A stretch of 47,081 bases of DNA from an uncultured Ignavibacteria bacterium. Lineage in GTDB: Bacteria > Bacteroidota > Ignavibacteria > Tepidaquicellales > OLB5. The position numbers were made by a program, and so were the translations under genes. The notes beneath the pieces were generated by a model, which saw only the letters and a program-made list of their open reading frames with translations, searched no databases and was not told the DNA's origin. The DNA lies in contig CALMYL010000026.1 of the NCBI GenBank assembly GCA_937873695.1, forward strand, positions 1 to 47,081, written 5' to 3'. This document shows, one piece after another, positions 7,824-47,054 of this stretch; position 1 is the first letter of the stretch, and each line of letters begins with the position of its first letter.

Positions 7824-7875
7824 GACCTCACCCCCCAGCCCCTCTCCTTTAAGGAGAGGGGAGCAATGTGGGATA
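7824..7875. repeat. Intergenic palindromic repeat, copy A
   Basis: A 52-nt unit running from GACCTCACCCC to GCAATGTGGGATA, with a central near-perfect hairpin (CCCCTCTCCTT / AAGGAGAGGGG, 7839-7861). The same outer sequence recurs at 7908-8018. It lies between two membrane-protein genes and has no coding potential. Confidence 0.75.
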
Positions 7876-45575: not shown

Positions 45576-47054
45576 TTATTTAATCAGTATCATAGTTTTT
45601 GTATAAACAAATTCGCCGGATGATAATCTATAAAAATACACTCCGCTTGGCAGTTCTGCTGCACTAAATTCCGCTTCATAAATTCCTGGCTTCAGGTTTT
45701 CGTTAACAAGTGTGTGCACTTCCCTTCCCAGGATATCGTATATTTTTAGCGAAGTGAACACACCCCGACCGGCTTCACCGGACACCCCTCTCAAGAGGGG
45801 AATCTGGAATTTGATTTTTGTGGATGGGTTGAATGGATTGGGATAGTTTTGATGAAGTGAGAAATGTAGCGGTAACTCGGATGAGATAGGCAGGATTCCA
45901 ATCAGTTGCGAATATTTAATAGTCATTAAATCTATGTCAGTATTTAAACTCCTTAATCCACCAAGCACATAAATACTATAATTACTATCAATAATTATCG
46001 ATGCATCAGGGATTACACTCGAATAATGAAAGCTATTTTGATGTTGACTCCAGACTAACATACCATTCTGATTATATTTTAGCGTAGTCAGCCTATAAGA
46101 ATTATCCGAATTTCTGCTATATCCTAAAGAGTAAATATCATTATAACTGTCTACAATAATAGAAGAAACAAAATCATTATCATTTCCCTGATCATTAAAT
46201 CGAGATACCCAAATAGAGTCACCTAATGAGTTATATTTTATTAAGGTAAAATCATAGCCCGAATTTGAATAAGAAGCTGAACCAGTAACAAAAATATTCC
46301 CTAGCTTATCAGTTCTAACTTTTACAGGATAATTTCTTTCTAGCCCATTGCCATCATATTTTCTAATCCATTTTTGATTACCTAAAGAATCATATTTTAA
46401 CAATACAAAAAGATAATTGTTGTATAAAAAAGGAGAACCATCGCTTTCACCTAACACATATATATTATTATTGTTGTCAAAATCTATATCATATGGATGA
46501 TCATAATTTCCTGAATTATACATCCTTGCCCAAAGTGAATCTCCTTGCGATGTGAATTTAACAACCACAATATCATCAAGTGAAAAATATTTGTAATAAG
46601 TTATTATTACATTGCTGCTCTTATCCAGTTTTGATAATTGAAAAGATCCAATACTTACGTCTAAAATCTGTTTTTGCCATAACAACCGTCCATCAATATC
46701 ATATTTTAATATTACAATACCTCCTTCAAAGTTACCCGCAACATAAACATTCATGTTTACATCCAAATCAATTGAGGCATAACTTGCGTAATATCCTCTG
46801 GAAAACTTGTTTACCCAAATTACATTTCCAGTTGAATCAAACTTAATAATTACTATTTTGTTAGAATTTGAACTGCAAACATAAATATTTGAATTTCTAT
46901 CTATTACCAGAGAACCCGGATATTCGGAGCTACTTACATTTGTACTAAAGTTTCTACTCCAAATTAAGTCACCAATTTTAGAATATTTAATTAATGTTAG
47001 TTTTTTTGGTAAATTTAGAGCGTTACTATGGAATGCCCTCAAAAAAATGGACAA
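45576..47054 (-). CDS. SBBP-type propeller with T9SS sorting domain, N-terminus replaced by an insertion-sequence tip
   Basis: The frame starts at a TTG inside the terminal repeat (47054), so the first ~8 residues are not native; native coding begins at about 47028 (SNALNLPKKLTLIKY). No signal peptide is left. The product has about eight SBBP-type blades (for example VIIKFDSTGNVIW, VVVKFTSQGDSLW, TLIKYNSLGDSIW, TTLKYNQNGMLVW) and a sorting domain with SLHQNYPNPFNPSTKI near 405-420 ending MILIK. Within the sorting domain, residues PLLRGVSGEAGRGVF are extra and come from a palindromic repeat (45761-45800). Without a signal peptide it cannot be exported, so it is probably a broken gene. Confidence 0.72.
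   Translation of the reverse strand: MSIFLRAFHSNALNLPKKLTLIKYSKIGDLIWSRNFSTNVSSSEYPGSLVIDRNSNIYVCSSNSNKIVIIKFDSTGNVIWVNKFSRGYYASYASIDLDVNMNVYVAGNFEGGIVILKYDIDGRLLWQKQILDVSIGSFQLSKLDKSSNVIITYYKYFSLDDIVVVKFTSQGDSLWARMYNSGNYDHPYDIDFDNNNNIYVLGESDGSPFLYNNYLFVLLKYDSLGNQKWIRKYDGNGLERNYPVKVRTDKLGNIFVTGSASYSNSGYDFTLIKYNSLGDSIWVSRFNDQGNDNDFVSSIIVDSYNDIYSLGYSRNSDNSYRLTTLKYNQNGMLVWSQHQNSFHYSSVIPDASIIIDSNYSIYVLGGLRSLNTDIDLMTIKYSQLIGILPISSELPLHFSLHQNYPNPFNPSTKIKFQIPLLRGVSGEAGRGVFTSLKIYDILGREVHTLVNENLKPGIYEAEFSAAELPSGVYFYRLSSGEFVYTKTMILIK
45761..45800. repeat. Palindromic repeat inserted in frame in the T9SS domain coding region
   Basis: Two hairpins lie side by side: CCGG-CTTCA-CCGG (45769-45781) and CCCCTCT-CA-AGAGGGG (45785-45800). 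Compared with the other sorting domains here, 10-11 codons are extra at this spot and the reading frame is kept. The CCCCTCT/AGAGGGG stem is shared with the intergenic repeat at 7839-7861. Confidence 0.7.

Follow-up and report, generated by a model that had tools for sequence, protein, structure and literature searches.

The C-terminal sorting domains (CTDs) of proteins from a genus of Ignavibacteria harbour a short palindromic DNA element that lies in frame within a predicted surface loop. The first-pass annotation had claimed that a palindromic repeat became protein-coding inside a sorting domain, and this claim is supported: the element, which we call F1, belongs to a dispersed family with 57 such cases in 13 genomes. 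With a probability of roughly 0.7, we interpret this pattern to indicate that F1 was tolerated in frame in one CTD loop and was then copied from CTD to CTD by conversion, swapping or duplication. Repeated colonisation of one domain loop by several palindrome families appears to be new.

The window, meaning the whole 47,081-nt stretch that was analysed, is contig C26 of a 3.78-Mb genome in 30 contigs. Translation and profile matches identify the host gene (45576-47054, minus strand) as encoding an SBBP-type beta-propeller protein with a CTD. It lacks an ATG start and sits at the contig end, which leaves the position of its real start uncertain. The hosting domain, a T9SS type A CTD (45579-45884, minus strand), is supported by profiles, a structural model and PDB matches. 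In profile searches, the C-terminus scored 36.1 bits against TIGR04183 (curated cut-off 23) and 33.3 bits against PF18962 (curated cut-off 27). The contig ends (1-53 and 47029-47081) form a perfect 53-nt inverted repeat, which is probably an assembly-graph or repeat edge.

In the window, F1 is 47 nt long (45757-45803, minus strand) and reads ATTCCCCTCTTGAGAGGGG-TG-TCCGGTGAAGCCGGTC-GGGGTGTGTT on the sense strand, the middle part being hairpin 2. Its boundaries are those of the sequence common to non-CTD copies, as defined from a copy alignment and from base frequencies in the flanks of copies inside and outside CTDs. Folding confirmed both hairpins proposed earlier. Hairpin 1 (45785-45800, minus strand; stem CCCCTCT/AGAGGGG) was also recovered by stem search and copy alignment, and its exact stem occurs once in the window. 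Hairpin 2 (45769-45781, minus strand; stem CCGG..CCGG) differs among copies. The 71-nt region around both hairpins folds at -11.8 kcal/mol (z = -2.4 against shuffles). RNAalifold on 14 F1 copies found changes on both sides in two of ten pairs, both in hairpin 2. At the protein level, 13 codons (LLRGVSGEAGRGV; 45759-45797, minus strand) replace the usual three loop residues directly after the conserved F-x-I-P of the CTD. The 10-11 extra residues noted in the first-pass annotation prove to be exactly ten, the sole indel when this domain is aligned with the nine other CTDs of the window (ten with the host gene's own), and the reading frame stays open through the insert, as had been proposed.

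Models of the CTD place strands at residues 21-28 and 42-49 with the insert (a 102-residue model) and at 21-28 and 32-39 without it. In these models the insert is the loop of the beta2-beta3 hairpin, predicted to lengthen from 3 to 13 residues while the strands match. Confidence is low in the insert (pLDDT about 56), which is modelled without strand or helix, and elsewhere is mostly above 87 except at the N-terminal end. The nearest PDB folds include the T9SS CTDs 8glk_D, 8qb1_A and 5m11, and the beta-sandwich is that of solved CTDs, with moderate TM-scores of 0.51-0.58 depending on the query. We refer to the loop that holds F1 as site 1. A second palindrome-bearing loop, in the last beta hairpin, is called site 2.

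Looking beyond the window, a 66-nt F1 query gave 21 BLAST matches in the same genome, and a covariance model gave 46 at E<=0.1, with sibling repeats among the weaker hits of the model. All 13 genomes of the genus contain the exact core, ATTCCCCTCTYRAGAGGGGTG, which is absent from two family members of other genera. A class-wide draw found it in 16 of 391 genomes: the same 13 plus G119 (26 copies), G156 (2) and G302 (1). Named records with a CTD-embedded F1 (38 stretches) come from Ignavibacteria or Chlorobi MAGs, with one labelled Candidatus Brocadia. That contig (L062) carries an Ignavibacteria-typical F1 CTD and is likely mis-binned.

F1 is far from single-copy: its exact core is present 136 times across the 13 genomes. 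Fifty-seven of these lie within CTDs, all at one codon position, in one orientation and in one frame. No CTD motif was found near the remaining 79 in any frame or on either strand; a looser criterion flagged 61 copies as CTD-associated, including the false flags L083, L205 and L210. From ATTCC to GGGGTGTG, the 52 measurable CTD copies span 31-58 nt, and the length is 1 modulo 3 in every one (31, 37, 52 or 58 nt; five copies were unmeasurable). Lengths outside CTDs are spread over the three modulo-3 classes (19, 22 and 30 of 71 measurable copies; eight unmeasurable). Of the 12 exact copies within the genome of the window, CTDs hold six, and two further CTD copies (L027, L028) are degenerate. 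Other coding hosts are rare, namely a homoserine dehydrogenase gene and a beta-helix protein. In the former (L024, 1258-2970, minus strand), F1 sits in frame directly past the catalytic domain of this core metabolic enzyme.

To place these counts in context, we use a sample of 847 kb that was unselected for F1 (400 kb of G000, 400 kb of G007 and the window) and contains 87 CTDs. At site 1, 65 of these have a short loop, four have 10-11 residues, ten carry F1, two carry a second palindrome family, F2, and the remaining six have long loops of other kinds. Four of the CTDs carry F2 at site 2.

F2 (GTAGAGACGACCCGGTGGGTCGTCTC) was found at 79 places in 12 of the 13 genomes, against none for the reversed control. 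It is mostly intergenic, with three of 30 loci, some of them overlapping, in CTDs; among the loci examined by eye, eight copies are in CTDs (nine were flagged, L362 falsely). F8 (CACAGACATTCCTGTCTGTG) has four CTD copies at site 1 and three non-coding copies, and F9 is dispersed, with CTD copies at site 2. Among the DNA examined, F3 occurs only in CTDs (2/2) and F7 only in open frames (3/3). The site-1 loop is thus host to unrelated palindromes in sister genes, clearly so for F2 and in one or two copies for several more. Many long loops are not palindromes, because just 7 of 20 long site-1 loops other than F1 and F2 folded better than every control window of the same CTD (median z -0.07), as did 6 of 49 long loops at site 2; the F1 and F2 part of this test is partly circular. 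The site-2 insert of L056, VVGDNTNNGVIF, is similar by eye to a palindrome adjoining L043.

Comparison of orthologues reveals the loop both empty and filled. For one host gene, the closest orthologues (G005 and G014, 92-93% identical in the body) have a short, empty loop, and further orthologues contain other palindromes. Neither objection foreseen in the first-pass annotation, a single-copy segment or one present in orthologues and unrelated to dispersed repeats, is borne out. The site-1 loop of a SpoIID-like gene is short in G005, G014 and G007, holds F1 in G000, G010 and G006 and a degenerate F1 in G013, and is filled by F2 in G004 and by a GTCAAAGGCATGCCTTTGAC palindrome in G008. In an M14 peptidase gene, the loop carries F1 in G000, G003 and G010, and F2 in G004 and G007. 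A comparable variety is seen in the linker of a beta-helix T9SS protein, where the palindromes vary by species or paralogue (F1, ATCCCGCCAAGGCGGGA, GTCCGTTCGGCGAACGGAC; loci L265, L266, L267, L268, L274, L275, L278 and L288). The beta-helix label is a reading of the sequence, as Pfam matched only the CTD in that protein.

We propose that this Ignavibacteria genus carries, in F1, a REP/MITE-like repeat that is short, non-autonomous and built of two hairpins. Frame-keeping insertions into the beta2-beta3 hairpin loop would be tolerated because they merely lengthen a solvent loop. Hundreds of paralogous CTDs per genome may trade sequence, whether through gene conversion, through swapping of cassettes or through duplication of genes. 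One tolerated insertion could in this way be copied among them, and such copying would account for the constant site, frame and orientation of F1. The hairpin would afterwards decay in situ. Unrelated palindromes would follow the same course in this loop and, now and then, at other tolerant places, such as the last CTD hairpin loop, the beta-helix linker and the stretch past the homoserine dehydrogenase catalytic domain. We infer that the insert is neutral and that the tagged proteins are expressed and secreted.

A rare tolerated insertion followed by copying is favoured because of a conversion tract, exchange of CTDs and a restricted pool of CTD copies. The tract involves two G000 genes 3.5 kb apart (L019 and L020), whose bodies are dissimilar (blastp gave nothing beyond weak matches, the best of them 32% identical over about 100 residues). 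Around the insert, identity is 87-100% per 30-nt step from -30 to +150 and decays on both sides, leaving about 150 nt near-identical, which points to gene conversion among hundreds of CTDs. Exchange is indicated by the M14 gene, where G000 and G005 are 90% identical in the body and 53% in the CTD, and G000 and G003 are 82% and 89% identical, respectively. Body and CTD identities disagree between species, and therefore CTDs have been exchanged. In hairpin 2, 51 CTD copies use 29 distinct sequences, one of them 15 times, compared to 64 distinct sequences in 70 copies elsewhere, a single one of which is common to the CTD pool; this copy list counted one G004 CTD copy twice and omitted three copies identical to others. 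Stem 2 is mostly 3-6 bp in CTDs and mostly 6-7 bp elsewhere. Judged by length and hairpin-2 sequence, we read the CTD copies as a pool of their own, with few lengths and few hairpin-2 variants.

Alternatively, F1 may itself prefer the CTD spot and have inserted there repeatedly, for example if microhomology matched its ATTCC start to the I-P codons and its TGTTT end to the F codon past the loop. All exact-core CTD copies begin at the same ATT CCC codons, and two- and three-hairpin variants both occur at the spot. However, flank base frequencies of non-CTD copies reveal only a weak W-A preference ahead of ATT. The one hairpin-2 variant common to CTD and other copies, and the different families in orthologues across species, which need several separate events, also speak for insertion at a preferred site. 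Counter to this are the restricted lengths and hairpin-2 sequences of the CTD pool, the visible conversion tract and the outgroup G119, where none of ten examined copies (of 26) is in a CTD, the number of CTDs in that genome being uncounted. On balance, we consider repeated site-directed insertion unlikely.

Lower still in our estimation is a role for tolerance without any copying between CTDs, in which repeats insert anywhere and CTD loops happen to be the most numerous harmless coding site. The density of 87 CTDs in 847 kb fits this idea, as does the finding of several families in the two CTD loops and in the beta-helix linker, where orthologues differ in their palindrome. Yet CTDs make up an estimated 2.5% or so of the DNA and hold 57 of the 136 copies (binomial 7e-54, ignoring that copies in one genome, and across species, are not independent). 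A single codon position is used, and the L019/L020 tract already weakens this explanation. Finally, the loop extension could serve the protein adaptively by diversifying the secretion tag, with the palindromic DNA incidental. This would be consistent with the frame being kept throughout and with conservation of the insert between the M14 orthologues of G000 and G003. We regard it as highly improbable, given that the same sequence is found in non-coding DNA, that unrelated peptides from unrelated palindromes fill the loop, that the insert is modelled at low confidence with neither strand nor helix, and that most CTDs are without it.

Returning to tolerated insertion followed by copying, what bears on movement of F1 is its presence or absence in different species, and no two sequences were found that differ by the element and keep the same flanks. 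No clean insertion event is visible because F1 takes the place of about 9 nt of the loop and the closest pair, G000 and G005, differs in the surrounding bases too; the more distant G007 resembles G000 around the loop. For 70 non-CTD copies, taken from the same earlier list as the hairpin-2 comparison, target-site duplications of k = 3-5 showed no excess over shuffles. The initial insertion could have involved a Y1/RAYT-type transposase or template switching. A direct link of F1 to Y1/RAYT transposases was considered and rejected, with F1 adjacent to none of eight Y1_Tnp matches in G000 and adjoining no RAYT gene there. Fuzzy searches with the palindromes that flank some Y1 genes flagged no CTD copy. 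The Y1 transposase genes L038, L040, L041 and L043 of G000 have their own palindromes repeated alongside, in a REPtron-like arrangement.

The first-pass annotation drew a parallel to Rickettsia, which holds in principle, for in-frame palindromes in proteins, and fails as family membership. Rickettsia palindromic elements (RPEs; Ogata 2000, 2002) are described as dispersed and in frame in protein genes (PMC10969869, PMC2996958), typically in non-structured protein segments (PMC2996958). F1 likewise is an in-frame palindrome within protein genes (57/136 copies, all in CTDs); the likeness is one of description. RPEs are about 150 bp long (PMC10969869), whereas the window copy of F1 measures 47 nt and the measurable CTD copies 31-58 nt. 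The RPE hosts described there are unrelated metabolic genes, whereas F1 overwhelmingly occupies one secretion-domain loop, which it has in common with other palindrome families. The bodies of its host genes are varied and the domain is nearly always the same, the exceptions being L024 and the beta-helix protein.

Other short palindromes offer further comparisons. According to PMC3733652, GTAG/CGTC-tagged REPs are mostly intergenic, with some inside ORFs at variable places; the in-gene hosts named are DNA repair and RNA-binding genes, and one site, in recB of two Xanthomonas, is in common. Unlike these, the F1 consensus has no GTAG or CGTC tag, although F2 begins with GTAG, and, in contrast to REPs with RAYT, F1 copies flank no Y1/RAYT gene. 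Wolbachia and Methanocaldococcus jannaschii contain in-frame, stand-alone coding palindromes at assorted positions and in assorted genes, and the relevant parts of that account describe no domain-specific colonisation of the kind seen for F1 (PMC2996958). MITEs are non-autonomous, short, dispersed and hairpin-forming (PMC10969869). F1 resembles them in these respects and differs in having no target-site duplication and, in aligned copies, no terminal inverted repeats. Searches of open-licence papers, without preprints, gave among the matches listed no account of palindromes from Ignavibacteria or from any T9SS sorting domain.

Until now, palindromes that code for protein were oddities of Rickettsia, Wolbachia and scattered REPs. 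The CTD loop, with hundreds of paralogues per genome, 13 genomes and several repeat families, is a replicated natural experiment that bears on the path from selfish repeat to protein, on the tolerance of loop insertions and on their spread by gene conversion. We should consider, tentatively and at slightly less than even odds, that T9SS CTDs act as a vehicle for selfish palindromes, in which unrelated families settle the same two surface loops, conversion among hundreds of tolerant, recombining CTDs per genome spreads them over much of the secretome, and repeats and secretion tags co-evolve. Annotators should be aware that the length of CTD loops here mirrors repeat history, not function.

Two further groups of repeats have resemblances to F1. 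The first-pass annotation related its stem to an intergenic repeat at 7839-7861. The letters CCCCTCT/AGAGGGG are indeed in common, and kinship was rejected: this repeat is of a different, longer-stem class, CCCCTCTCC(N3-7)GGAGAGGGG, without a second hairpin and without GGGGTGTGT. None of nine copies of this class within the 847 kb is in a CTD, and among the places listed in the genome it is commoner than the F1 class. A sibling element, AGCTCCCCTCC..GGAGGGGTG-hairpin-GGGGTGG, is clustered on contig C7 of G000 (L395, L397-L400).
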